This document shows, one piece after another, positions 4,881 through 60,671 of a DNA stretch of 64,000 bases. Origin of the DNA: Lactobacillus sp. PV034 (GTDB lineage Bacteria; Bacillota; Bacilli; Lactobacillales; Lactobacillaceae); NCBI RefSeq assembly GCF_014522305.1, contig NZ_CP041982.1:749001-813000 (forward strand), given 5' to 3'. Position 1 is the stretch's first letter, and each line of letters begins with the position of its first letter. The translations under genes and the position numbers were made by a program. The notes under the pieces are model-generated. The model worked only from the letters and a program-made list of their open reading frames with translations. It was not told the DNA's origin and made no database searches.

Positions 4881-7373
4881 TTAACTATCTCCATCTTCTT
4901 CAGGAGGAATTAGAACTTGCCGAGGCTTCGATCCTTCTGACGGTCCCACAATTCCTTTAGCTTCCATCGTATCTACAATTCTGGCTGCCCTGTTATATCC
5001 AATTCTAAATCTTCTTTGCAACATCGAAACACTTGCAGATTGCTGTTTTCGAACTAGCTCAACTGCTTGTTGATAAAATTCATCATCCGGTTCGTCACTA
5101 TCTTCATCCCCATTTCCATCCTGCTGAGAAGGAATCATAGTTTCATCATATTCAGCTTCTTGCTGTTGTTTTACCCATTCAACTACTTTTTCAACTTCAT
5201 CTACGGAAATAAAAGCTCCTTGAACACGCTCAGGTTTTGAAGCGCCAATTGGTAAAAAGAGCATATCTCCGCGACCAAGTAATTTTTCTGCACCAACTTG
5301 ATCTAAAATTGTGCGTGAATCGACTCCACTTGATACTGCAAAGGCAATACGAGATGGAACATTCGCCTTAATCAATCCGGTAATAACATCTACACTTGGA
5401 CGTTGAGTAGCCAAGATCATATGTATACCAGCCGCTCTTGCCATTTGAGCTAAGCGAACAATGGCATCTTCTACATCATGACCAGCTACCATCATTAAGT
5501 CACTCAACTCATCTACTATTACTACAATGTATGGCAGTTTTTCCATTACTGGATTATCTTTATCTTGATTATTTTCATCAACCTTTTGGTTATATTCGGT
5601 TATGTTTCGAACGCCTCCAGCAGCAAAAAGCTTATAACGTCGTTCCATTTCTTTAACAGTTTTTCTCAATGCATTTGCCGCTAACTTGGCATCTGTAACC
5701 ACAGGAATTAACAAGTGAGGAATACCGTTATAAACGGATAATTCGACCATCTTAGGATCAATTAAAACCAATTTTACGTCTTCAGGATGTGATTTCATTA
5801 GGATACTAGTAATAATTGTATTAATCGCTACTGATTTACCCGATCCCGTTGATCCCGCAATTAATAAGTGTGGCATCTTTCTTAGATCAGCAGAAATTAT
5901 TTCCCCGGTAACATTTTTTCCTAAAGGAACTGTTAAATCAGATGACTTAGATTTTTTATCTTGATGCATCATTGCATCTTTAAAGGATACAGCTGATGTC
6001 GTACGGTTGGGAACCTCAATTCCAATCAAGGGTTTACCCGGAATTGGTGCTTCAATTCTAATATCTTTAGCAGCTAAAGCAAGAGCTAAATCATCAGCTA
6101 AATTAACTATTCTACTTACTTTAACACCAACTGCAGGTTGAACTTCATAACGCGTAACAGTAGGTCCTAAAACAGCCTTTTTAACATTGACATCCACCCC
6201 AAAACTCTTAAATGTAGATTCTAACACTTGAGTATTCTGCTGAATCAATTTCTTATCTTGGGATTGATCAACATTTTGAATCGGCGCTAATAAATCAAGC
6301 GGCGGGAGAACATAATTCTCATTATGATTGTTTACGGCTAATTTAGTATCAAAATCTCCATGATCAACACCACTGAGTTCCTGACGAATTTTATTATCTT
6401 CATCAGCGAAAGAATGCGATTTTGGTAAATCGCCTTCAACGTTTTGGTGTTGAATTATTGGTGATTTATTTTGCAAATCAGATTTTGGAGATACAAGAGA
6501 ATTTTCTGATACAGCATCTTCTGATAGATGTTCACTAGAATCTTCAATTGGAATTGGTTTAAAGGGATCTTCTTCACTTAAACCAAGATTTTCTTGAGGC
6601 AGCTTATCTAAATTATCAATTTTAGTTTGCTCATGAAAATCTGCTGTATTTGGAAGAAAATCATCATCAGAGTCATAAGGATCTCTTAAATTTTTTCGGT
6701 TATCTTTTTGCTGTTCTCTTTTTTCGACAAAATCAGAATAAGTATTTTGAATTTTATCACTAATTACATTACCAGCAGCCTTATTCTTCTGAATAAATAA
6801 TTGCGAAACTTTTTGAAAAATTCTTACAATATCAGCAAATTTCACATTAAAGATCATTAAAATACCGCAAATAATTCCGCAAACAGCCAGTGTCAAAGCA
6901 CCAAGATGACCAAAAATTGGGAAAATTATTTGATAAAGGACAGTTCCAATCAATCCTCCGCCAACGCTAGTAGTGTTTTGGCCTCGAGCAAATTCACCAT
7001 CAATGATATTAACAAAACTGTTAACGAAATCATGATTAATCATTAGATCTTTAAAGAAATTACTACTTTGCCAGAGCATAACGCCACCATAAGCTAGAAT
7101 AACGCCACTACTTCGTTTAATTCCAAGATGAGGCTTTTGATTATAAATAATCATTACTAAACCAACAATTCCTAAAATAAAACTCGCTAAATAATGTGTA
7201 TTACCTACTATAAAACGTAAACAGTTTACTAGCTGACGGCTAAAGATACCAAAGTGTAAGCAAGAGAAGATACTAATTAAGACTAATACGATACCAATCA
7301 AAACATTGGTCATATCTTGTTTTTGTTTTTTTGTATTATTTCTTCTCTTCTTTCTTTTCTTGCTCTTAGGCAT
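4881..7373 (-). CDS. ftsK: DNA translocase FtsK/SpoIIIE
   Basis: An 830-residue septal DNA pump that clears chromosomes through the closing division septum. The N-terminus is very basic (KKRKKRRNN), followed by four to five membrane helices within residues 20-180, an acidic and polar linker to about residue 350, and the RecA-like motor with Walker A GSTGSGKS near residue 505 and Walker B ([11 protein letters not shown]). The C-terminal gamma domain (winged helix, [21 protein letters not shown]) that reads KOPS/SRS sequences is intact. Length and domain order are normal for the family. First gene of the ymf block on this strand. Confidence 0.95.
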
Positions 7374-7385
7374 AGGACATCCTTC

Positions 7386-7820
7386 CTAATTTTTATCAGA
7401 ATTTTGTTTCTCTTTAAATTTGAGTTGATCAAAATTTGATTTAAAGTTTAAATTTACCGGTTGTTCCATTGTAATTTGAGTTAGCTGATAAGTTAATGTT
7501 TCTATTTCTTCAACCAGAGGGCGTGAAATTAATTCATAGTCGTTTGGCTTTAAATCTCTTCCTTCTCCAAAATAATCAATTAGCTGAACAACTTGGCTTA
7601 CTAACCCTGATACAGTGAATTGTCCAGGCGCAGGTGCAACTTCAAAAGGAACTGCAACTTCAAAGAAGTGCCCAGACTTCCCTTCATACTGCTCACCTTG
7701 ATCATTAGTTTGAAATACTTGGCGAATAGATACATTTAAATCATTTTTTACCTTTAAAGTATCATTTAAATCATAATGAAAGTGCTGTACCAAGATAGGA
7801 GTCATTTTTTTAATTTCCAT
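7386..7820 (-). CDS. DUF1149 family protein
   Basis: A protein of about 144 residues of the DUF1149 family, conserved in Lactobacillales and without a known role. It is predicted to be soluble; GHFFEVAVPFEVAPAPGQF and a following VSQVVQL segment give a beta-rich middle like SecB-fold proteins, but this is only an impression. The ATG at 7820 has AGG eight bases upstream; a GTG at 7829 in the same frame is a weaker choice. It overlaps the end of trmL by 11 bases and ends 12 bases before ftsK, so it links trmL to the ftsK block. Confidence 0.7.
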   Translation of the reverse strand: MEIKKMTPILVQHFHYDLNDTLKVKNDLNVSIRQVFQTNDQGEQYEGKSGHFFEVAVPFEVAPAPGQFTVSGLVSQVVQLIDYFGEGRDLKPNDYELISRPLVEEIETLTYQLTQITMEQPVNLNFKSNFDQLKFKEKQNSDKN

Positions 7821-8376
7821 TATTTTCACCTAAATTTCGTTCATAACGCTCTGGACGATTATAATCATCTTTTAATTTATCATTTTCATAATGATGCGAC
7901 GTTTCTAAATTTGGAAATCCTTGTTGTCGTAAAGCTTCTAATAAAACCATAGCAACAGAATTAGATAAATTATAACATCTAATACTATCAGACATGGGAA
8001 TTCTCAAATTGCGCTCGTAATAATCACGCATGAATGTCTCAGGTAAACCTGTAGTTTCTTTTCCAAATACAAAATAATAATTTTTATTGGTGTCTGTATA
8101 ATCCACCTGAGCATAATTCTTTGATGAAAATTTTGAAATTAAATACATTTCATCATTTGGTCCTAGAGTATCTAAGAAAGCTTGTAAATCATCATGCAAG
8201 TGAATTTCAACTTTATCCCAATAATCTAATCCAGCTCTTTTCATTTTTTTATTATCAATTTGAAAACCTAGAGGTTCAATTAAGTCAAGAACCGTATTAG
8301 TTCCTGCACAGGTTCGGGCAATATTCCCTGTATTTGCTGGCATTACTGGTTCAAACAAAACAATATGATTAGTCAT
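7810..8376 (-). CDS. trmL: tRNA (cytidine/uridine-34 2'-O)-methyltransferase TrmL
   Basis: SPOUT (SpoU) family methyltransferase that modifies the wobble ribose of tRNA-Leu species. Family motifs are clear: EPVMPANTGNIARTC near the N-terminus, the knot-forming FGKETTGLPE and the C-terminal IPMSDSIRCYNLSNSVAMVLLEA. The true start is the ATG at 8376, which follows a strong GAGGGGG site; an upstream in-frame start at 8418 would run back through the terminator of the preceding gene. A C-terminal tail of about 30 charged residues extends beyond the core. Confidence 0.9.
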   Translation of the reverse strand: MTNHIVLFEPVMPANTGNIARTCAGTNTVLDLIEPLGFQIDNKKMKRAGLDYWDKVEIHLHDDLQAFLDTLGPNDEMYLISKFSSKNYAQVDYTDTNKNYYFVFGKETTGLPETFMRDYYERNLRIPMSDSIRCYNLSNSVAMVLLEALRQQGFPNLETSHHYENDKLKDDYNRPERYERNLGENNGN

Positions 8377-8390
8377 AAAATACCCCCTCG

Positions 8391-8428
8391 TAAAAAAACG
8401 TAGCACTTGGATTTTCAAGTACCACGTT
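8391..8428 (-). terminator. Rho-independent terminator of the AI-2E gene
   Basis: Imperfect inverted repeat with arms 8398-8409 and 8416-8427, loop of six bases, followed on the minus strand by seven T residues (8392-8398). It lies after the stop of the AI-2E family gene and just before the ribosome binding site of trmL. Confidence 0.75.
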
Positions 8429-8446
8429 AATTTGTTACCTACAATT

Positions 8447-9634
8447 CTACTCTTTTATTGATTTTTTATCATTACTTGAAGGCTTATTTTCGCTATATAG
8501 GGCTGAAATATTGCGATAATAGTTAAATAATCTAGTTAAAATAATTTTAATAACCGCATAAATTGGAATTGCAAAAATTACACCCCATAATCCTGAAACT
8601 GCACTTGCACCAATCAATAATAAAATAGTTGTTACAGGATTCATATTCATTTTGTTACCCATTACTAATGGAGAAATTAATCTTCCTTCAATGGTCTGTT
8701 CAATTGCGAATACAATAATCACTTTTAACAACATCATCGGAGAAGTCATAATTCCAATAATTAATGCTGGAATAAACGCAATAAAGGTACCAAAATAAGG
8801 AATTAAGTTCAAAAATCCTGCTAAAACAGCTAAAGTAATGCCATAGCGTAATCCAATAATTGAGTAGCCAATACTGAACATTACTCCTACCCAGAATGCT
8901 ACTGTTATTTGTCCACGAATATATGAGGCAATAGCATCATTAATATCATGCAATAAGCTTGCAAAGCTTTCCTGTAAACGTTTAGGAGCAAACTGAGCCA
9001 GGTAGGGTTTAAACTTGTGTCCATCCTTTAACATAATAAAAAGAACAAAAGGTGCGGTTAATAATGTCATTACAATCATAGTAATAACATTAACTGCATT
9101 AGTAACATTAGCCAAGGCAATATCAATACTATCCTTACTAGTAGTAAATAGCTTGCTTTGGGCAGTTGCAATTGCATCATTGATATTGCCCCTTACACTA
9201 TTTAAACGAGGATCATGCAGCATGTGATTAAAACTTTTTTGCGCATCTTTCCAATACTCCGGCCAATTATTAACTAATGATGTGGTTTGTTTTTGAACAA
9301 TTGGTACTAAAATGGCGATAATCCAAATAATTAACCCAATAACTAATAGAAATAGGATAATAATTGTGATAATTCGTGGAACATGCCATTTTTCCTCTAA
9401 AAAATCGACTAGTGGATTCATTAAATAAAACTGAATAGAAGCGACTAATAATGGGGGTAAAATAGCATAAAAAAAGGTCCAAACAGGATTTAAAATAAAA
9501 GATATTTTATTAAATACCAAAAGAATTAAAAAGAATAAAAGAATATTTAATAAAACTACGCTAAAACGATTATTTAAGAACCACTTAACAAATATGTTAT
9601 TCTTTGCTGACTCTTTATTTGTTTTTCTTTCCAT
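8447..9634 (-). CDS. AI-2E family transporter (YtvI/TqsA/PerM type)
   Basis: A polytopic membrane protein of about 395 residues in family PF01594. There are roughly eight hydrophobic helices, two near the N-terminus (VVLLNILLFFLILLVF), a long soluble stretch at about 110-170 and a cluster in the C-terminal half (GYSIIGLRYGITLAVLAG, LNLIPYFGTFIAF, typical of the family). Members have been linked to autoinducer-2 or small-metabolite export and to sodium/proton exchange, but the substrate cannot be predicted. Start taken at the ATG at 9634, with AAAGAG seven bases upstream; a TTG lies directly before it. Monocistronic, with its own terminator. Confidence 0.85.
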   Translation of the reverse strand: MERKTNKESAKNNIFVKWFLNNRFSVVLLNILLFFLILLVFNKISFILNPVWTFFYAILPPLLVASIQFYLMNPLVDFLEEKWHVPRIITIIILFLLVIGLIIWIIAILVPIVQKQTTSLVNNWPEYWKDAQKSFNHMLHDPRLNSVRGNINDAIATAQSKLFTTSKDSIDIALANVTNAVNVITMIVMTLLTAPFVLFIMLKDGHKFKPYLAQFAPKRLQESFASLLHDINDAIASYIRGQITVAFWVGVMFSIGYSIIGLRYGITLAVLAGFLNLIPYFGTFIAFIPALIIGIMTSPMMLLKVIIVFAIEQTIEGRLISPLVMGNKMNMNPVTTILLLIGASAVSGLWGVIFAIPIYAVIKIILTRLFNYYRNISALYSENKPSSNDKKSIKE

Positions 9635-13970: not shown

Positions 13971-14585
13971 ATGTTTGAAATCTTCTTCTTTATGAATCCT
14001 TTAGGTATTAATTGTTATTTAAATGAAAAAGCAATAATTAACGGTATTGATGATTCACAGAAAAAGGTCGACTATCATTTTATTCCAATGGCAAATATGA
14101 CTACCATACGCAATGATCTTCTAGCGCGGAATTTGCCGACTTGCGATTTAAATTTGTTTAACAAGTTTAGTCGCCGCACCTTTAATGCTATTAAAGACTA
14201 TCATGCTGTAAAGCTAATTAAGGGTAACAAAACTGCGAGAAAATTTATATTCGATTTGCAGGCAGCTGTTAATGAAAACGATAAAAAATACTCAAAGGAT
14301 TTAGTCAACGAATTTTTGCAGAAATATAGTATTAATCCTTCTGCATTTGAAGAAACAAGAATGTCAAAATACGTTCTTTATTCAATGAATAAGGATTCAC
14401 ACTTAGCTAAGAAATTTAATGTTCAAACTACCCCAACTACATTATTTTATGATTATGATCACGATAATTGTAATTATAAAATTGAAGGGAAAGTTACAGA
14501 AGATGATGTTGATATCGTATTAAATGAAGCCAATGCTATCAACAACTCTAAGATTAGTGGACAAGCTAATTTGCATCTTTTATAA
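13971..14585 (+). CDS. spxH: YjbH/SpxH-like ClpXP adaptor, DsbA-like fold
   Basis: A 204-residue thioredoxin-superfamily protein of the DsbA/YjbH group. In B. subtilis and S. aureus YjbH (SpxH) delivers Spx to ClpXP. The active-site position reads NPLGINC, so the usual first cysteine of CxxC is replaced by glycine and only one cysteine remains: oxidoreductase activity is unlikely, an adaptor role is more likely. The C-terminal part has the thioredoxin-type cis-proline region VQTTPTTLFYD. Its genomic closeness to spxA and mecA supports the assignment. GGAGG precedes the ATG by eight bases. Confidence 0.78.
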   Translation: MFEIFFFMNPLGINCYLNEKAIINGIDDSQKKVDYHFIPMANMTTIRNDLLARNLPTCDLNLFNKFSRRTFNAIKDYHAVKLIKGNKTARKFIFDLQAAVNENDKKYSKDLVNEFLQKYSINPSAFEETRMSKYVLYSMNKDSHLAKKFNVQTTPTTLFYDYDHDNCNYKIEGKVTEDDVDIVLNEANAINNSKISGQANLHLL

Positions 14586-14590
14586 GAAGG

Positions 14591-14618
14591 GCATCTCTTA
14601 ATGAGATGCTCTTTTTTT
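14591..14618 (+). terminator. Terminator after the yjbH-like gene
   Basis: Arms GCATCTC (14591-14597) and GAGATGC (14603-14609), followed by CTTTTTTT on the plus strand. It overlaps the 3' end of coiA on the other strand. Confidence 0.8.
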
Positions 14619-15461
14619 ATGTAAAAAATCAACTATTCTTTTTGAAGTGAAAGGATCTCGGTTTACCATTAAGACTTGGTCAGGTATCTGATCAAGCGTT
14701 AATTTTTGCTTGTAAAGTAACTCTCCGACTTCTCTTCCGAATTTTGTTCTATCTCTTAATTGACGATAAAGATAATTTTTTCCTTTCTCAAGACTAGTCA
14801 ATTTCAATGGTATCGTAGGTGGCATAAATGTAAAAAGCTGTTTTAACCCATCTTCATCTAATTTAAAATCTTTTCTTTGAAACCAAGCTCTGTTGCTATT
14901 AGCCTCTAACTGAATGTGATATTTTAAATGGATTTTTTGTCTTGTTGGCTCAATTTCAAGCAAGTACCAACCCCAACTAGGCGATTTTCGTAAATATTTA
15001 TATTGTGATCGAATAAGTTTCTTTTTTAAGTAATGGCGCTTTCCTACTATCCAAATATCTTTAATATTAAGTTTCTCATATAAAGTATGGCGATGTTGAT
15101 ATTCTTCATCACTTAATGGCGCACATTGAATTTCAAAAGCTATTTTTTTTGACGCTAAAATATCTGCCCGTAATTGATTAAAGGCAAGAGAAACTTCCAT
15201 CCTTGCTGGATAACCACAAGCTACCAGAGCACTACAAAGCAGCTTCTTACTTTCTAAATGTTCCTGTTTTTCCCCCTCACCGGTAATTAAACTTAAATGC
15301 TTGAAAAATGGCGCTTTATATTGAGAAATAATCAAAATTACCCTTTTTTTGCAAGATGGACAATGATAAAAAGTACCATTTAATTTCTTGTATCCTTGAT
15401 GAACAAGCTGCGCTTCACTAATTGCTAAAACCAATTTCTTATCTAATAGTGCAGCATACAT
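14598..15461 (-). CDS. coiA: Competence protein CoiA
   Basis: A 287-residue CoiA family protein, needed for processing incoming DNA during competence in streptococci and bacilli. It starts MYAALLDKKLVLA, has a zinc-finger-like YHCPSCKKRVIL (one CxxC visible), then the nuclease-like core (GYPARMEVSLAFNQLRADILASKKIAFEIQCAPLS) with the D...E.Q pattern of PD-(D/E)XK-type enzymes. I chose ATG 15461, with GGGGTG six to seven bases upstream; the longer reading to 15509 would start inside the mecA terminator. Presence of coiA does not by itself show the strain is competent. Confidence 0.9.
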   Translation of the reverse strand: MYAALLDKKLVLAISEAQLVHQGYKKLNGTFYHCPSCKKRVILIISQYKAPFFKHLSLITGEGEKQEHLESKKLLCSALVACGYPARMEVSLAFNQLRADILASKKIAFEIQCAPLSDEEYQHRHTLYEKLNIKDIWIVGKRHYLKKKLIRSQYKYLRKSPSWGWYLLEIEPTRQKIHLKYHIQLEANSNRAWFQRKDFKLDEDGLKQLFTFMPPTIPLKLTSLEKGKNYLYRQLRDRTKFGREVGELLYKQKLTLDQIPDQVLMVNRDPFTSKRIVDFLHKKRASH

Positions 15462-15484
15462 TTTTTCACCCCAATATTTATTAC

Positions 15485-15520
15485 GAAAAAAAGAGTAAAG
15501 TTCTTTCAAACTCTACTCTT
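15485..15520 (-). terminator. Terminator after mecA
   Basis: Inverted repeat AAGAGTAAAGTT / AAACTCTACTCTT around a short loop, followed on the minus strand by a T-run (15485-15491). It abuts the mecA stop codon and separates mecA from coiA. Confidence 0.75.
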
Positions 15521-16992: not shown

Positions 16993-18732
16993 TTATTCGT
17001 TGATTCCTAACTTCTTCATTGTTTCTTCAACTAACTTTTTGTTTTCTTCATAAGTTTCAGAAACATCACAAGCTTCATTAGCTAGTTCTTTAATATCATT
17101 AGTATTAATTTTCTTCATCAAACTTCTGATACGTAAAATTGAAGTTGCACTCATTGAATATTCATCCAATCCCATTGATAAAAGAATTGGGAACATTATG
17201 TCATCACCAGCAGCTTCACCACACATACCACACCAGATGCCATTTTCGTGGGCACCATCAATAGTATGTTTGATCAAACGTAAAACTGAAGGATTATATG
17301 GTTGATATAGGTAGGAAACATTGTCATTTCCACGGTCAGCAGCCATAGTGTATTGAATAAGGTCATTAGTACCAATTGAGAAGAAATCGACTTCCTTAGC
17401 AAATTGATCTGCTAAAACTGCTGCAGCTGGAACTTCAATCATCATACCTACTTGAAGATCATCACCGATCTTAACACCCTTCTTGACTAAATCATCTTTT
17501 TCTTCTGCAAGAATCTTCTTGGCCTTACGTAATTCATCAAGCGTACCAATCATTGGGAACATAATACCCAATTTTCCGTAAGCTGATGCACGTAACAATG
17601 CTCTTAATTGAGTTCTAAAAATATCAGGATTTTGCATTGAAAGGCGAATAGCACGAACACCTAAGAATGGGTTCATTTCTTCGGGAAGATCCCAGTAATC
17701 TAAGTGCTTATCTCCACCGATATCACAAGTTCTAATAACAACTTGCTTACCATCCATACCTTCCAATACAGCTTTATAAGCCTTAAATTGATCTTCTTCA
17801 GATGGAAAATCAGATGAATCCATATATAAGAATTCAGTACGGTAAAGTCCAATAGCTTCAGCACCATTTTCCTTTACACCCTCCATATCATCTGGAGTAC
17901 CAATATTGGCAGCAATGGTAAAGTGTTTACCGTTAGCGGTAACTGAAGGTTCATCTTTAAGTTTCTTCCATTCAGCCTTACGCTTGGCAAATGCTTTACC
18001 CTTTTCAGTGTATTCTTTTACTTCTGAATCAGATGGATTAAAAAGCACATCACCATCTAAACCATCAGCAATAACCATTTCACCGTCTTTAACATCTGAA
18101 GTAATAGTTTCAGTACCAACTACAGCTGGGATTTCAAGTGAACGTGCCATAATTGCTGAGTGAGCGGTTCTACCACCAATATCAGTCACAAAGCCTTTAA
18201 CATATTTTTTATTAAGTTGTGCAGTATCACTTGGGGTTAAATCGTGAGCAATAACTACAACTTCGTGATCAATTGAAGCAGGATCTGGCAACTTCTTACC
18301 AAGTAAGTGTGCCATAAGTCTTTTTGAAACATCGCGCACATCTGCAGCTCTTTCTTGCATATATGCGTTATCAGTCATACCTTCAAAAATTGCAATATAC
18401 TTTTGTGCAGTATCATCTAATGCAGCTTCAGCATTGATCTTTTCGTCTTTAATTTCAGTTTCGATGGCACCAGTAAATTCTGGATCACTTAAGAATAAAA
18501 GGTGAGCATCGAAGACTTGTGCTTCATCCTCACCTAATGTTTCTTTAGCTTTATCTCGAACAGCTTCGAGTTCTTTAGTTGATTCTTCAACTGCTTTCTT
18601 AAAACGAGCAATTTCAGCATCAACATCAGTTATTGAAGTTTTTGAAAACGAAAGGTCAGGCTCTACTAAACGATATGCTTCTGCAATGGCAATACCGTCA
18701 CTAGCTGCAATACCCTTTAATGTTTTCGTCAT
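16993..18732 (-). CDS. ptsI: PTS enzyme I (PEP-protein phosphotransferase)
   Basis: A 579-residue cytosolic enzyme that moves phosphate from phosphoenolpyruvate to HPr, first step of PTS sugar uptake. The phosphorylated histidine lies in [21 protein letters not shown] near residue 190. The C-terminal PEP-binding barrel has LYRTEFLYM, the DIGGDK loop, [22 protein letters not shown] and the active-site cysteine in [13 protein letters not shown]. Length is standard. The start overlaps the ptsH stop by one base, so the two are coupled. Confidence 0.97.
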
Positions 18733-55345: not shown

Positions 55346-56279
55346 CTTTCTTTGCATCATCATTTGGAGTAGCTACCTTATCAGCGACTACAAATTCAAT
55401 ACCTGCTGACTTAGTTTGAAGTAAATTAACATCATCATAGGATTGTTCGTAGTAAACATAGTTACCAGAAGTTATAGCGGTAGGTGCATCAAATCCAACA
55501 AATGAATATTTTTCAGGTGCAACTTGAACACCATTGTAAATCAATAACATTTGAATTTGTTTAGCATCTGCAACTTCTTTAGACCCAATTTCAAAATCAA
55601 ATTTAGTTTGCATTAAATTGCTTGGTACAACTTTAATAGTTACTTGATCTAAGCTATGAACAGTACGAGTAATATTACCAGGATCACTAATAACAATTTG
55701 ACGATTCATAGCATCCGCACGCTTCAAAATTCCATTAACAACTGGATTTACATAAAGAATACGGTTGTTAGATGGAATAGATGCTTCATCAAAGTTAGTC
55801 ATCATATCATCAAATGCTTGTAAGATATTCTTTTCATCTAAAGTATCAGTGTGAATACCTTTAGTGCCATCTAAATTTTGCTTTTCTAAAAACAAGTGTG
55901 AATACATGTAGCGGTCCTTTTCAGGCATCTTTTCAGTCAAATTAAACTGACGAGTGATGTTAGCAATTGAAACGACCATATTAGTTTCATCCACATCTGA
56001 TGGATCTACCAAAGTTGACCAGTAACGTTCATTTTTCACTTCGTATGAATCCCAATCATTTGAATAGTTTGCGTGAGGCACTGTAATTTCTCGTCTCTTA
56101 CGATCTTGACGTCCTTCGGTAATATTTAAACGTGGTAATTTGTAGTGCTTAGCACCATCCCACTTGATAAGTGCATTGCTTGGACTATTCCATAAGTCTG
56201 CTGAATATAAATGACCATCATAAAAAGCTGTTTGAATAGCTTGTTGATATGAGGTTGCGTAATTAATTAAATCTGGCAT
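55332..56279 (-). CDS. Major capsid protein
   Basis: A 315-residue capsid protein, coming after the scaffold and before the connectors. It starts MPDLINYATSYQQAIQTAF and contains RQFNLTEKMPEKDRYMYSHL and the C-terminal PEKYSFVGFDAPTAITSGNY, typical of this HK97-fold capsid group in myoviruses of lactobacilli. No protease gene is near, in line with a separate scaffold. Coupled to the scaffold gene by one-base overlap. Confidence 0.85.
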   Translation of the reverse strand: MPDLINYATSYQQAIQTAFYDGHLYSADLWNSPSNALIKWDGAKHYKLPRLNITEGRQDRKRREITVPHANYSNDWDSYEVKNERYWSTLVDPSDVDETNMVVSIANITRQFNLTEKMPEKDRYMYSHLFLEKQNLDGTKGIHTDTLDEKNILQAFDDMMTNFDEASIPSNNRILYVNPVVNGILKRADAMNRQIVISDPGNITRTVHSLDQVTIKVVPSNLMQTKFDFEIGSKEVADAKQIQMLLIYNGVQVAPEKYSFVGFDAPTAITSGNYVYYEQSYDDVNLLQTKSAGIEFVVADKVATPNDDAKKDASK

Positions 56280-56830
56280 TATTTAGCTTCTCCTTTTTTA
56301 AATATATCAACCATTTGTTGAGTTGTGTCTACTGGCGCAGGCTCGCCATTAGTAGGCTTATAATCTTCTTTACTACCTTCATCAAATAAATATGGATCTG
56401 ATTTCTTCATAGCTTCAACTTGTTCTTTTAGCCCTTGAACAGTACCATCTTCGTTCAACTTGATAGTATCGTTATCTAATAAAGCCTTAGCAGCCTTGGT
56501 ATTTCTAACTTTGTTATGAGTCAAAAATTGTTCAATAGCACTATTAAGTTTCACTGCATGCAATTTGTTAGTAAGATTTTCAGTATCTTCCTTATACTTA
56601 CTTTGAAGATCCTTGAATTGACCTGATAAGTCTTCATTATCCTTAACTTGTGACTGCAACTTTTTTAAATCCTTGTTACGTTCATCAATTTGTGACTTCA
56701 AAGACTTATTTTCTTCAGTAATTTCATTTAAATTGCTCTTAGCTTTTTCAATATCACTACCGTTTAAGTCCATAACTTTATTAATTTGTTCGTCATTAAG
56801 ACCTAACTCTTTAAGGTTTTCTCTTTTCAT
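56279..56830 (-). CDS. Phage scaffolding protein (GP20 type)
   Basis: A 183-residue, highly charged coiled-coil protein (ITEENKSLKSQIDERNKDLK, LQSKYKEDTENLTNKLHAVK) ending with the capsid-binding type tail (MVDIFKKGEAK). This is the GP20/minor structural scaffold family. I chose ATG 56830, nine bases after AAAGGAA; a reading to 56848 is possible but starts upstream of that site. Confidence 0.85.
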   Translation of the reverse strand: MKRENLKELGLNDEQINKVMDLNGSDIEKAKSNLNEITEENKSLKSQIDERNKDLKKLQSQVKDNEDLSGQFKDLQSKYKEDTENLTNKLHAVKLNSAIEQFLTHNKVRNTKAAKALLDNDTIKLNEDGTVQGLKEQVEAMKKSDPYLFDEGSKEDYKPTNGEPAPVDTTQQMVDIFKKGEAK

Positions 56831-56848
56831 ATTGTCTGTTCCTTTCAC

Positions 56849-56916: not shown

Positions 56917-56945
56917 AATAAAAAGCACTAACAATTATTAGTGCT
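56917..56945 (-). terminator. Terminator after the MuF-adjacent small gene
   Basis: Arms AGCACTAA (56924-56931) and TTAGTGCT (56938-56945) with T-rich tail on the minus strand. It separates the portal-MuF block from the scaffold-capsid block. Confidence 0.75.
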
Positions 56946-57351
56946 ATATTCCTTCAAAATCATCCCAATATTTATCCCACCAGCCTGGTTTTATCTTGAC
57001 ATTAGGGAATATTTCTTTACCGACTGCCTCATTAAAATCAGCCAAAACTTGTTCGCATCGTTCTTTGATATAAGCATCCACTTCACTTGGTGGCATCTCG
57101 CACTCAATTAGTTCTTTAGCAAATTTTTTCCGTTCCTCTAAGGCTTTTTGGTCTACTTTTTTTAGTTCTTCAGATGAATATTCCTCTGTAAAATCTCCTA
57201 TTTGAGGCGGTCTATTGCCATGAGTTAAAAGATTTAAGATGTATTTAAGACGACCTACAGAATTACCTTTATCACCCACTAGGCAAATTAAATCATGACT
57301 AATTACTAAGTAATCATTAGTAGTTGGGAATTTTGCTATGACTTTAACCAT
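56944..57351 (-). CDS. Small protein after the MuF gene, candidate immunity protein
   Basis: A 135-residue acidic soluble protein (VKVIAKFPTTNDYLVISHD ... PGWWDKYWDDFEGI) with a helical middle (SSEELKKVDQKALEERKKF). No family is recognised. It overlaps the 3' end of the MuF gene by 8 bases and is followed at once by a terminator, so it is expressed with MuF. If the MuF C-terminus is a toxin, this is the natural place for its immunity gene; otherwise it is a minor phage protein. Confidence 0.6.
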   Translation of the reverse strand: MVKVIAKFPTTNDYLVISHDLICLVGDKGNSVGRLKYILNLLTHGNRPPQIGDFTEEYSSEELKKVDQKALEERKKFAKELIECEMPPSEVDAYIKERCEQVLADFNEAVGKEIFPNVKIKPGWWDKYWDDFEGI

Positions 57352-59260
57352 CTAAAACCTCCTCTAACTTATACTTGATCTTTTTATTTTTTAGAAGTTT
57401 TTCTAAACTTTCAGTTAATTCATCTTTTGGAATAATTATATAATCAATATCTTTATAAGTTAAGTGTCCATGCAATTGTGCTTCATTATAATCGTATTGT
57501 TTATTTTTAATAAATTTATTTATATTATCATAGTTTTCATTTAACTCAAGATAAGGGTCTTTCCATAACTTACTTAAAAAAGTTCTACCTTGGTTAGACT
57601 TCATAAATTTTAAGTTTCGCAAATATGATTCATTAATAGTACCAATTTTAGACGGCTTAGCTAGCTTCTCTAATGGCATTCCTTTAATTCCTAGACTATC
57701 ACCATGGTTATATGTTGTCCTGGATTTTATTGAGTCTTTGAAAATAATCTTACTACTTCCATACTGATTTAAATTTCTATTAAACGGCTCATCATCTCTA
57801 CTATCCCACAAATAACCATATTTTTCGAAATCAATAGACTTATAATTATTAACTTCTTCCATTGGAATATTAAATAAATTAGCCGTAGCCTTCTTCCTAC
57901 GAGCTGGATCAAATAGCCCACCACTTTTATGGGTTTCAAACTGATTTTTAAAGCCTGTATTGATAATGCTTTCTAAATCGCTTGTATTAACTCGCATTCT
58001 TACTTGTACAGTAGGTAAAGCTGAAATATCGGCAATTTTTTGAAGCTGTTTTTTTACATTTATTTTAACTAAGCGTTTAGTCTCTTCATCGGTATCATAT
58101 TTATTAACATTTTTATTAATAAAATCATCAATACTTTTAGTAGTAAGGTGACGCAAAGTTTTAGGTAATGAATTAGTAAGGTGTTTATGAGCCGTAAATG
58201 TTAACTTAGGTTTGAACTCACTATCAACTTTAGGATTAAAAACATTTTGATAATTTTTCCATTGATCAAATGTCATATTTTTAATTAAATGACCTTTACC
58301 ATTATCATCTCTCGCCCATCTTGTTTCTACATCAGGTAGGGCTGGATCATACGGTGTAGTGGTACATCTACAATAAGGATGGATCAATGGATAATTTATT
58401 CCTGTTTTTTGGTCCCTAACTTTAAATATTTTTACATCAAGATGACCACATTCAGTACAAGTACGTGATTCAAGCGTGGCCATATATTGATATTGTTCAA
58501 TTTTGCTATCTTTATAAAAATCTAAGTTAGCTGTTTCTTGCGCATGACCCATTTCAGTAACTACTAATCTATGAATTTGATTTTCACTAAATTGCGTCAT
58601 TCTTTGCCGCATCTCTTGAGTGATTTTACTATATGACTGTCCAAGTAAAGTGCCACGTAAGATAGCATCAGTAAGATAATCAGGTAAGACCTTAGTATAG
58701 TTTCTCCAAATACGTTTTGAAAAATCACTGCCTTGCCAAGGCCTACGAATTATATTCTCAACTTGCCGTTCGTTGAAGTGATTAATATTAATACTCAATT
58801 TTCCTTGTAACTTCTGCCGACTATATTCTGCCATCAAATAGCTTTCAGAATATTCTTTTGATAAAGCTGTTTGCATTCTAAGTACTTCACTAGCTGAATG
58901 TTTTTCTGCAAAAATAACCAGCTGATCATGCAAATCCTGTAATCTAGCTATCCGACTTCTAAAATATTCGGTATCAAGTTCTTTTTTATATCCACCTTTT
59001 TCAGCTTTAGCTTTAAATTCTTCTAATGTCATCCGCCAATGTCGGCTGTTAATAGTATTTAAAGCCTGTGCAGCATTTTTTAGAGATGTATTATTTTCTT
59101 GAGCGTACCTTGATATATAACCAAATGCTTCACACTCCATATCATTTTCAAGCTGCTTTAAACGATTTCGCATAGCCAACTCATAATCTGCAGCGCTTTG
59201 CAATTCTTGCTGTTTAGCAAAAATCATTCGCTTACGCCAATAACTATTCGTCTTCATCAT
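57344..59260 (-). CDS. MuF minor head protein with C-terminal toxin-like domain
   Basis: A 638-residue protein. Residues about 1-330 are a phage minor head protein of the SPP1 gp7/Mu gpF type (GTLLGQSYSKITQEMRQRMT, TLESRTCTECGHLDVKIF, INYPLIHPYCRCTTTPYDP). This is already the full normal length. Residues about 420-638 are an added domain: VRMRVNTSDLESIINTGF, FETHKSGG, KYGYLWDSRD, SRTTYNHGDSLGI and YNEAQLHGHLTYKDIDYII. That pattern resembles DUF3626/ADP-ribosyltransferase-like toxins. It overlaps the portal gene by 17 bases. Confidence 0.8.
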   Translation of the reverse strand: MMKTNSYWRKRMIFAKQQELQSAADYELAMRNRLKQLENDMECEAFGYISRYAQENNTSLKNAAQALNTINSRHWRMTLEEFKAKAEKGGYKKELDTEYFRSRIARLQDLHDQLVIFAEKHSASEVLRMQTALSKEYSESYLMAEYSRQKLQGKLSININHFNERQVENIIRRPWQGSDFSKRIWRNYTKVLPDYLTDAILRGTLLGQSYSKITQEMRQRMTQFSENQIHRLVVTEMGHAQETANLDFYKDSKIEQYQYMATLESRTCTECGHLDVKIFKVRDQKTGINYPLIHPYCRCTTTPYDPALPDVETRWARDDNGKGHLIKNMTFDQWKNYQNVFNPKVDSEFKPKLTFTAHKHLTNSLPKTLRHLTTKSIDDFINKNVNKYDTDEETKRLVKINVKKQLQKIADISALPTVQVRMRVNTSDLESIINTGFKNQFETHKSGGLFDPARRKKATANLFNIPMEEVNNYKSIDFEKYGYLWDSRDDEPFNRNLNQYGSSKIIFKDSIKSRTTYNHGDSLGIKGMPLEKLAKPSKIGTINESYLRNLKFMKSNQGRTFLSKLWKDPYLELNENYDNINKFIKNKQYDYNEAQLHGHLTYKDIDYIIIPKDELTESLEKLLKNKKIKYKLEEVLDG

Positions 59261-60671
59261 CTACATCATCTTCTGAATCATCAGGCTTGTAATCAGAATC
59301 AGGAGCAAATGGATCACCATTTTTAGCATCTTCTTCTTGATACTTAAGTTCTTGTTGCCAGTCATCAACAATTGGATTAGCTTTTGCAATTGCTTCCTTG
59401 GAAGACCAATTTGCCACAGTTGATAACACTTGAGCTTGACTTAAAGAATCTTCAATCATGGTTCTTTGCCATGTCTGAATTACATTTGTACTCATTGCAT
59501 TCGGGAGATTGAGATAAGTCATAATAGCTCTGACTAAATCGCTAATAGAATTTCTAAAATTAGCTTCAGTTGTTGAAGCTTTTAGCTCTAATGTTGAATA
59601 AAGCATCTTAATAGCTGTACCACTAGCATTAGTCGTATCAAACTTAGTTGGATCAATTCCTTGGCCTTGAACAAAAATATTATCTCTTGTGATATTTAAA
59701 ACAGTATTTCGAGCTTCTGTTGGGATTTCGATTTGAAGTGTATCAATACCACTCTGGTCGCCATTACCACTGTTGTTGAACTTAACAGCTTTATATTCAT
59801 TAAGATCTTTCATAAAGCTTCTCAGGTCTGTACCGCCATAATTTTTTAATACCAACACAACTTGTTGAATATCATCAATGTCATTTAAAAAGCCGTTATA
59901 AATATCATCGTAAGCATCAATTAAGCCCTTATACTTAAATAAATCAGGTTCTCTATATCTATTTTTTGGGAAAATAATAAAAGGAACTCGTCCAAATTTA
60001 TGATGAAATACATTGCTTGCCCCAGTTTCATAACCAGCTGATACATCAAACGTAGTAATCCGATTATATGGTTCCAGTGTCTCTACATTTTCTGTATCCG
60101 GTGTTCTAAAAAACATAGCTTCTTGATCAGTCCAATATTCATGAACAATAAAATATTTTCCAGTATCAGAATCTAATTGTTTGTAACTCCTAAGTAATCC
60201 AATTAATTTTGAAGTTAACGTTGTATCAAAAATTGGTGTTACTTGATCAAATGGAACAACAGAATATCTAAAATTATTATCATCATCGAGCCAGTAATGT
60301 AAGCAACTATAACCACCTAAAGCAGCATCAACTACTAAATTATTTAAGGTTAGTGCAAATTGATCACCTAAAACATCTATTATTTGATTGTTAATTTTTT
60401 CATCCCCTACATCAATTTGAGGAACTTTGGTTGCCACATAGCTGGCCTCTTGATCTACAAGCAATTGATGAAAATTTTGAGGAACTCTATTATCTGCATG
60501 ACGTAAAGGCTTGTCTTTACCTTCTTTATTAAGTCTAGACTTTCCATTATTACGGTTAGTAATATCAGTCTTGTTCTCATAATATCGCAGAGAAGTTTTG
60601 TATCTATTAACTCGCCGCTCTCTTAACGTAGCAGTATTTTTTATCAGATTTTGTAATACTTTTACGTCCAC
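59244..60671 (-). CDS. Phage portal protein (SPP1 gp6 type)
   Basis: A 475-residue portal. Marks include RHADNRVPQNFHQLLVDQEA, IDVGDEKINNQIIDVLGDQF, ALGGYSCLHYWLDDD and GRVPFIIFPKNRYREPDLF. The acidic C-terminal tail (PDSDYKPDDSEDDVDDEDE) is common in this group. It forms the 12-subunit ring through which TerL pumps DNA. Overlaps TerL by 10 bases and MuF by 17. Confidence 0.9.
   Translation of the reverse strand: MDVKVLQNLIKNTATLRERRVNRYKTSLRYYENKTDITNRNNGKSRLNKEGKDKPLRHADNRVPQNFHQLLVDQEASYVATKVPQIDVGDEKINNQIIDVLGDQFALTLNNLVVDAALGGYSCLHYWLDDDNNFRYSVVPFDQVTPIFDTTLTSKLIGLLRSYKQLDSDTGKYFIVHEYWTDQEAMFFRTPDTENVETLEPYNRITTFDVSAGYETGASNVFHHKFGRVPFIIFPKNRYREPDLFKYKGLIDAYDDIYNGFLNDIDDIQQVVLVLKNYGGTDLRSFMKDLNEYKAVKFNNSGNGDQSGIDTLQIEIPTEARNTVLNITRDNIFVQGQGIDPTKFDTTNASGTAIKMLYSTLELKASTTEANFRNSISDLVRAIMTYLNLPNAMSTNVIQTWQRTMIEDSLSQAQVLSTVANWSSKEAIAKANPIVDDWQQELKYQEEDAKNGDPFAPDSDYKPDDSEDDVDDEDE

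Follow-up and report, generated by a model that had tools for sequence, protein, structure and literature searches.

How does a structural protein of a phage head come to carry a C-terminus that none of its counterparts at the same locus keep, and what might that C-terminus do? This question is raised by P0001, a MuF minor head protein encoded in a 64,000-nucleotide stretch of the Lactobacillus sp. PV034 genome (contig NZ_CP041982.1, positions 749,001 to 813,000; hereafter the window), and by P0002, a small gene that overlaps its 3′ end. A sequence-only reading of this DNA had taken P0001 for a head protein with a toxin-like C-terminal domain, and that description stands. We consider it likely that a temperate Lactobacillus phage encodes, in P0001, a MuF polymorphic toxin with a SopF-type ADP-ribosyltransferase at its C-terminus and an immunity gene directly behind it.

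The N-terminal part of P0001 is readily recognized as a head protein. Phage_Mu_F (PF04233) matches residues 197-301 with E = 5.5e-18, and TIGR01641 gives E = 5.8e-25. Among 60 genomes, its own included, P0001 was matched in 19, and the long matches, found at 12 places in 10 other genomes, all end at residues 338-360. We compared 11 relatives at the same locus, leaving out L034 as a duplicate of L033. The MuF core is 49.7-58.4% identical across these relatives. Mean identity is 0.60 at residues 301-320, 0.37 at residues 321-340, and at most 0.12 in each 20-residue block after 340. The C-terminus of P0001 is kept in 0 of the 11; the best comparison gave E = 0.006 over 29 residues (L036), and the rest gave at least 0.26 or no match. 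Behind this region the scaffold gene is conserved again: it was compared in 9 of the 11 relatives and is 54-65% identical there. The extension past the shared core is therefore nearer 300 residues than the roughly 220 first estimated, as identity is at background after residue 340.

Other domains occupy the same place in the relatives. L035 and L037 carry ADPrib_exo_Tox with a score above its cut-off, L033 has the same domain below cut-off, Ntox50 is found in L039, L040 and L041, and Ntox24 scores below cut-off in L038 and L042. The extension of L036 appears by eye to be a JAB-type peptidase, with no Pfam match, while in L031 and L032 the MuF core lacks any extension and runs straight to the scaffold gene. 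These sequence comparisons confirm that the P0001 C-terminus is an exchangeable cassette, bordered by the MuF core on one side and by the scaffold gene on the other. Swapping of C-termini across related prophages had been named in advance as the check that could refute the toxin proposal, and it came out in the proposal's favor. As part of a head protein that is kept in frame, the C-terminus could in principle be an ordinary structural virion domain. However, no relative at the locus keeps it, two have no extension at all, and the region has an enzyme fold with invariant active-site-like residues (see below), making a structural role highly improbable.

Cassettes of this kind were also seen in other arrangements. 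The 848-residue MuF protein of L037 (2267-4813) has two consecutive extra domains, an HExxH-type domain identified by eye followed by ADPrib_exo_Tox. A same-genus genome holds three orphan cassettes (L028, G022:C7:258000-277999, at about 6700-9190, 14150-15520 and 17470-18640) that lie near a phage integrase (L029, 5463-6581). Each consists of a short MuF arm (residues ~284-335), a different domain and an arm matching the scaffold start; the domains are ADPrib_exo_Tox, an HExxH-type protein (by eye) and Ntox50, and the arms are 87-95% identical in DNA. These cassettes look like a store of spare MuF toxins.

We then asked which family the P0001 extension belongs to. Pfam DUF3626 (PF12294) matches residues 433-632 with E = 1e-4 and 21.9 bits, or 22.8 bits for the domain alone, and within the 60 genomes a DUF3626 match occurs only in the window's own. 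Scans for close relatives with single sequences found neither the domain nor the small gene in viral contigs, and the domain as a single sequence against genome contigs gave 210 pattern matches, of which 0 were confirmed. An alignment query was therefore needed. We built it from the window's domain and proteins of Streptococcus phage MissE2, a Christensenellales phage and Bacillus phage SP-15, all found by protein search, and it retrieved 23 viral loci, SP-15 itself included. The window and viral domains were assembled into a 20-sequence alignment, from which we left out L059 and L060 (near-identical to L058), L061 (an unread residue), L073 (a broken frame), L051, L052, and L053 (the same phage as L078). 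DUF3626 matches at E ≤ 0.1 were found for 16 of these 20 sequences, the window included, with a best value of 1.2e-10. The likeness to DUF3626 that had been noticed by motif order is thus more than chance. In 398 genomes, the 20-sequence profile (E = 8e-16 to 1e-12) and the Pfam model pick out the same three genomes with stand-alone DUF3626 proteins, besides the window's own. Two further domain matches among 395 genomes of the order besides its own, in G813 (2.9e-4) and G834 (5.6e-4), were rejected as chance, since by sequence they lie in carboxypeptidase-like and LicD-like genes.

Both profile and structure lead from DUF3626 to SopF. Searched against the PDB, the 20-sequence profile matched the SopF chains 7dn8 (E = 8e-8) and 7dn9 (E = 1.7e-6), with one further match at 0.4. 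The AlphaFold model of the domain has a predicted local distance difference test score (pLDDT) of 83.3 and a predicted template modeling score (pTM) of 0.85. When this model was compared with 350,542 chains by Foldseek, SopF ranked first and second (7dn8 and 7dn9; E = 4e-8 and 1.7e-7) and DarT1 third (E = 9.6e-4, probability 1.00), followed by other DarT, CopC and CteC entries, all above E = 0.001. Among viral structure models, 15 match the domain at E ≤ 0.001, including phage minor capsid, DUF3626 and giant-virus proteins. These data place residues ~420-632 in the DUF3626/SopF superfamily at the profile level, and the predicted structure has the fold of a SopF-type ADP-ribosyltransferase. Structure prediction, proposed earlier as a check, returned an enzyme fold with SopF at the top.

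The DarT1 match and the several DarT entries after it could mean that the substrate of the enzyme is not protein but, as for DarT, DNA or some other nucleic acid. We regard a nucleic acid target as improbable. SopF, a protein modifier, has a far better fold score, and no other ADP-ribosyltransferase came up when the PDB was searched by sequence. The families listed at E = 0.1 for the 20 members number 12, none of them a DarT model.

If the domain is a SopF-type enzyme, its conserved residues should be informative about the active site. In the 20-sequence alignment, E593, Q595, G598, Y591, Y481, Y500, T516 and R455 are each conserved in 20 of 20 rows, D521 in 19 and H597 in 16. Some rows are closely related to one another (L070/L071, L063/L067 and L075-L077), so 20 of 20 represents fewer independent lineages. 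Conservation of F-N-Q-E-T (437-443) is partly built in because this motif was the search seed; L093 and L094, found through the small gene, read FKTQLET there. The residues that we rely on (E593, Q595, G598, Y481, Y500 and T516) lie outside the seed. In the profile alignment, M422 pairs with an isoleucine of SopF, and E593 pairs with chain position 256, which is E in 7dn8 and D in the NAD (nicotinamide adenine dinucleotide)-bound 7dn9. By arithmetic from the chain length, this would presumably be residue 325 of SopF. The E-A-Q/H-x-H-G end motif is also similar in the two. We infer from the alignment that E593 is the catalytic glutamate, and the predicted active-site layout appears to resemble the I-Y-E triad of SopF.

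The motifs named at the outset, VRMRV (420-424), SRTT...GDS (513-522) and EAQLHG (593-598), are all present, and the assignment to ADP-ribosyltransferases held at the level of fold, with SopF first and DarT next. The R/STS/E-x-E layout suggested along with it did not. A classic R-S-E enzyme, an arginine ADP-ribosyltransferase like cholera toxin, would fit an R-led strand, an RTT stretch and an E-x-Q motif in the expected order, and ADPrib_exo_Tox domains do occur in neighbors at the same locus. The columns nonetheless misfit: of 20 rows, 15 have R at position 423, 12 have R at 514 and 2 have S at 513, and all 20 have E-x-Q rather than E-x-E. PF03496 is also without a match in P0001 (Pfam search at E = 1) and in the window's genome (E = 0.001). 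We give this assignment next to no credence.

According to the main text of Jamet et al. 2017 (PMC5576092), an open reading frame (ORF) of fewer than 150 residues follows 89.4% of MuF toxin genes versus 25.5% of short MuF genes. At our locus, one or more small ORFs lie directly behind the extension in 9 of 9 relatives that have one and in 0 of the 2 without. The scaffold gene is visible after them in 7 of the 9; for L039 and L042, the three ORFs listed downstream are all small. In all three cases measured (the window, L058 and L093), the toxin and small genes overlap by 8 bases.

We further examined how closely P0002 is tied to the toxin domain. Among 75 genus genomes, P0002 was found only in the window's own and in Lactobacillus intestinalis (G007), where it adjoins a trace of the toxin domain; the 60-genome P0001 search showed no further trace beyond these two genomes. 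A three-row P0002 profile against 301 family genomes gave the window's own as the sole match among the matches listed, the L. intestinalis genome not being among the listed rows. Against viral contigs, the same profile found 8 loci, of which 3 are on contigs already known and 5 are new, and all three new contigs with longer upstream DNA (L093, L094 and L095) carry the same MuF toxin there. The toxin domain lies directly upstream of the small gene in 8 of 8 places where upstream DNA extends past 118 bases, namely the window, L. intestinalis (a toxin remnant only), L058, L059, L060, L093, L094 and L095; the L091 and L092 contigs start at the small gene or 118 bases before it. The C-terminal region is 52.9% identical to that of L058 (272 columns) and 48.9% to that of L093 (276 columns), whereas the small gene is 35% and 37% identical, so the small gene evolves faster than the toxin domain. 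In L095, the MuF core matches are in two frames, and the toxin domain and small gene are each in one piece. Taken from gene order and sequence, these data make P0002 likely to be the immunity gene for the overlapping toxin.

The L. intestinalis copy is found on a plasmid. Plasmid NZ_CP072985.1 of strain DSM 6629 carries, at 78513-79234 (L030, 9514-10235), a decayed toxin remnant next to an intact small gene. The end of the toxin domain is in two frames and corresponds to no listed gene in a gene table that leaves out pseudogenes; type I-E cas genes are nearby. Compared with L093 at the DNA level, the plasmid is identical at 375 of 390 positions in the small gene, 176 of 233 in the toxin part and 110 of 144 in the stretch that follows, with 13 gap columns left out for the toxin part and 12 for the following stretch. 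The small genes of L091 and L092 match the plasmid copy at 390 of 390 and 386 of 390 bases. We used L093 for the comparison because the L091 and L092 contigs begin at the small gene and assembly mixing is possible. The higher identity of the small gene is explained either by recent exchange or by selection on it. The plasmid gene fits a captured antidote, with which exchange and selection are both compatible, neither being proof. If the gene is protective, it would be natural evidence that toxins borne on heads reach the cytoplasm of the infected cell.

These observations also bear on whether the enzyme is a toxin at all. A few copies could instead enter with the DNA and, like T4 Alt, ADP-ribosylate a host protein in favor of infection or lysogeny, with the small gene acting as a regulator or chaperone. 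The main text of PMC9503650 discusses MuF-fused viral ADP-ribosyltransferases as enzymes packaged in the head and injected, and that of Jamet et al. (PMC5576092) proposes a lysis-lysogeny role for mildly toxic MuF proteins. Against a helper enzyme, toxin and immunity better fit the exchange of nuclease-type toxin families at the same place, the presence of small ORFs only where there is an extension, and the intact small gene beside a decayed toxin on the plasmid. We therefore think a helper enzyme unlikely, though it deserves to be weighed.

For a toxin with its immunity gene, we propose the following course. The N-terminal MuF part would serve as a normal minor head protein, placed in the head with the portal, and the C-terminal domain would enter the cell with the phage DNA during infection. 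There it would most likely bind NAD and move ADP-ribose onto a target, with E593 as the catalytic residue, to the harm of the bacterium. Lysogens would express the small gene and so be protected. The P0002 protein most likely blocks the enzyme by binding, since it is small and has no hydrolase match.

Several points weigh against a SopF-type toxin with its own immunity gene. The single-sequence score lies under the Pfam DUF3626 cut-off of 27 bits, so we call the domain DUF3626-like rather than a Pfam member. The fold similarity to SopF is moderate (template modeling score 0.55, root-mean-square deviation 7.5 Å over 315 columns). The first triad position, M422, is M in 14 rows, I in 4, S in 1 and Y in 1, and the acting tyrosine could be either Y481 or Y500, both conserved in all 20. 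Among 18 carrier proteins of the 23 viral loci, 9 match Phage_Mu_F, 2 match Phage_min_cap2 and 7 match neither, with two of these seven (L071 and L079) running off the available DNA. The 8 linked places amount to about four sequence types because L058-L060 and L093-L095 are near-copies. For P0002 itself the best match to a known family has E = 0.046, well short of the cut-off of that family, and its model is of low confidence (pLDDT 65), with strands followed by helices. Lastly, the small genes of distant carriers are not demonstrably one family: three pairings of four small-gene subgroups gave hhalign probabilities of 2.3, 0.4 and 0.5%. A single immunity family across all carriers, suggested by a short GYW-like motif that several small genes share, is thus unsupported by profile comparison, and we limit the immunity-gene claim to the Lactobacillus group.

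The arrangement of MuF toxins is known, and the locus follows it. The main text of PMC5576092 describes a MuF N-terminus in a packaging or head operon, a variable C-terminus, a downstream ORF of fewer than 150 residues and temperate phages of Firmicutes. Here we found a MuF N-terminus in such an operon, an exchanged C-terminus, a downstream ORF below 150 residues and a prophage. Bxa, from a Bacteroides stercoris prophage, is likewise a MuF-fused ADP-ribosyltransferase with adjacent immunity genes; it kills E. coli and is neutralized by those genes, so its antibacterial action has been shown (main text of PMC11699363). Bxa differs from the window's SopF-type domain in that it is reported to modify arginines, and its immunity proteins include an ADP-ribosyl hydrolase, whereas P0002 has no hydrolase match. 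Apk2 is another tested MuF toxin (PMC12226406).

The ADP-ribosyltransferase SopF has an I-Y-E triad and does not resemble earlier known enzymes of this kind in sequence (PMC10333799), and DUF3626 has been noted in it (PMC6682159). SopF and the window's domain share a superfamily by profile and fold (7DN8, 7DN9), an equivalent glutamate and a similar end motif. However, SopF is a type III secreted effector that acts in animal cells and is activated by ARF GTPases (PMC10333799 and PMC6682159), while the window's domain is carried by a phage head protein and has a likely immunity gene beside it. DarT, of DarTG, shares a weaker structural similarity with the domain; no sequence-level match was seen, and nothing at the locus points to DarT's antitoxin partner.

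Neither SopF nor DUF3626 is named in the main texts of PMC5576092, PMC9503650 or PMC11699363, the last of which does not mention DarT either, and DUF3626 was not found in the searched part of PMC3482391. In the literature searched, the papers that contain DUF3626 are, judged by title and abstract, all on Salmonella, and co-mentions of SopF and MuF concern, again by title and abstract, mouse liver disease, STING and tuft cells. Because the search covered neither subscription papers, preprints nor supplements, a prior mention in some table is possible. A SopF-type enzyme within a MuF toxin thus appears not to have been described before.

These results link a domain of unknown function that occurs in many phages with an enzyme whose structure has been solved with NAD bound, provide a candidate toxin-immunity pair in a Lactobacillus phage, and suggest a possible origin of SopF-like effectors. 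Taken together, SopF might belong to a large family that is usually at home in the phage head, where its members are packaged as exchangeable toxins, each with an antidote of its own. Phages would swap cassettes between the MuF core and scaffold, relatives would keep silent cassettes with both homology arms, hosts would capture the antidote to survive infection, and secreted effectors such as SopF would descend from phage-head toxins. We offer this joint account tentatively and regard it as rather doubtful.

The features of the locus are collected in the table. Terminase genes lie upstream of P0001, and a major head protein and tape measure lie downstream. Beyond the right edge of the window are a helix-turn-helix repressor-like gene, an M78 peptidase and a phage integrase (5.3e-27). 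With terminase and head genes in the window and these genes beyond its edge, the prophage appears, from its gene content, to be that of a temperate phage whose head and lysogeny modules are complete. The host genome is assembled as one 1.58 Mb contig, and the best P0001 matches among named phages, by protein search, are Lactobacillus phages.

Table. Coordinates of the P0001 locus (positions in the window)
Feature	Position	Strand	Remarks
MuF minor head protein with C-terminal toxin-like domain, P0001	57344..59260	minus	638 residues, ATG start
MuF core, residues 1-340, swap boundary at its end	58241..59260	minus	49.7-58.4% identity to 11 relatives
Exchangeable C-terminal region, residues ~365-638	57347..58168	minus	Close match to viral contigs L058-L060, L093-L095
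DUF3626/SopF-type ADP-ribosyltransferase-like domain, residues 433-632	57365..57964	minus	Pfam below cut-off, SopF profile, fold; M422 strand just upstream
E593 codon, putative catalytic glutamate	57482..57484	minus	E in 20/20; aligned to SopF chain position 256
Shine-Dalgarno-like GAGGAGG	57358..57364	minus	Within toxin 3′ end, 6 nt ahead of the small gene's ATG
Small gene P0002, 135 residues, putative immunity gene	56944..57351	minus	8-base overlap with toxin gene; homologues behind same toxin domain
Terminator-like hairpin and T run	56924..56945	minus	Directly 3′ of small gene, ahead of scaffold gene; pattern scans only
Scaffold protein gene, conserved right-hand cassette border	56279..56848	minus	Phage_scaffold 8.7e-48; 54-65% identity in 9 relatives compared
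Portal protein gene, left-hand neighbor	59244..60671	minus	SPP1_portal 7.1e-81

A promoter-like site ahead of the small gene (57463-57435) was not used, as such sites in the region are at chance level (26 found, 27.3 expected). A terminator-like hairpin lies between the toxin and the next head gene in 9 of 11 loci with a cassette (L035 and L037 being those without) and in 0 of 2 without a cassette. The stretches surveyed are unequal in length, with the right end not set by a visible scaffold gene in L058, L039 and L042, and single-base shuffles yield a hairpin in up to 11 of 50 (L042), so we treat this pattern as a lead only. From the hairpin behind the small gene, given these weak controls, the cassette may form a separate transcription unit inside the late operon.

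Some viral carriers place the DUF3626-like domain differently. Bacillus phage SP-15 encodes a 763-residue protein (L053, 1981-4272) with the domain in mid-protein (8.9e-5, below cut-off) and no Pfam MuF match; its end appears by eye to hold a second ADP-ribosyltransferase-like domain, which Pfam does not match. In L075-L077, the domain is a separate protein; a small ORF comes next, and after it a distinct MuF gene (Phage_Mu_F 6.2e-15 in L075, similar-looking in L076 and L077). A 1558-residue open frame in L071 (2-4678), whose start lies beyond the available DNA, has a weak Tpt1/KptA match (3.2e-4, below cut-off) before the DUF3626-like domain, possibly placing two NAD-related domains in one phage protein.

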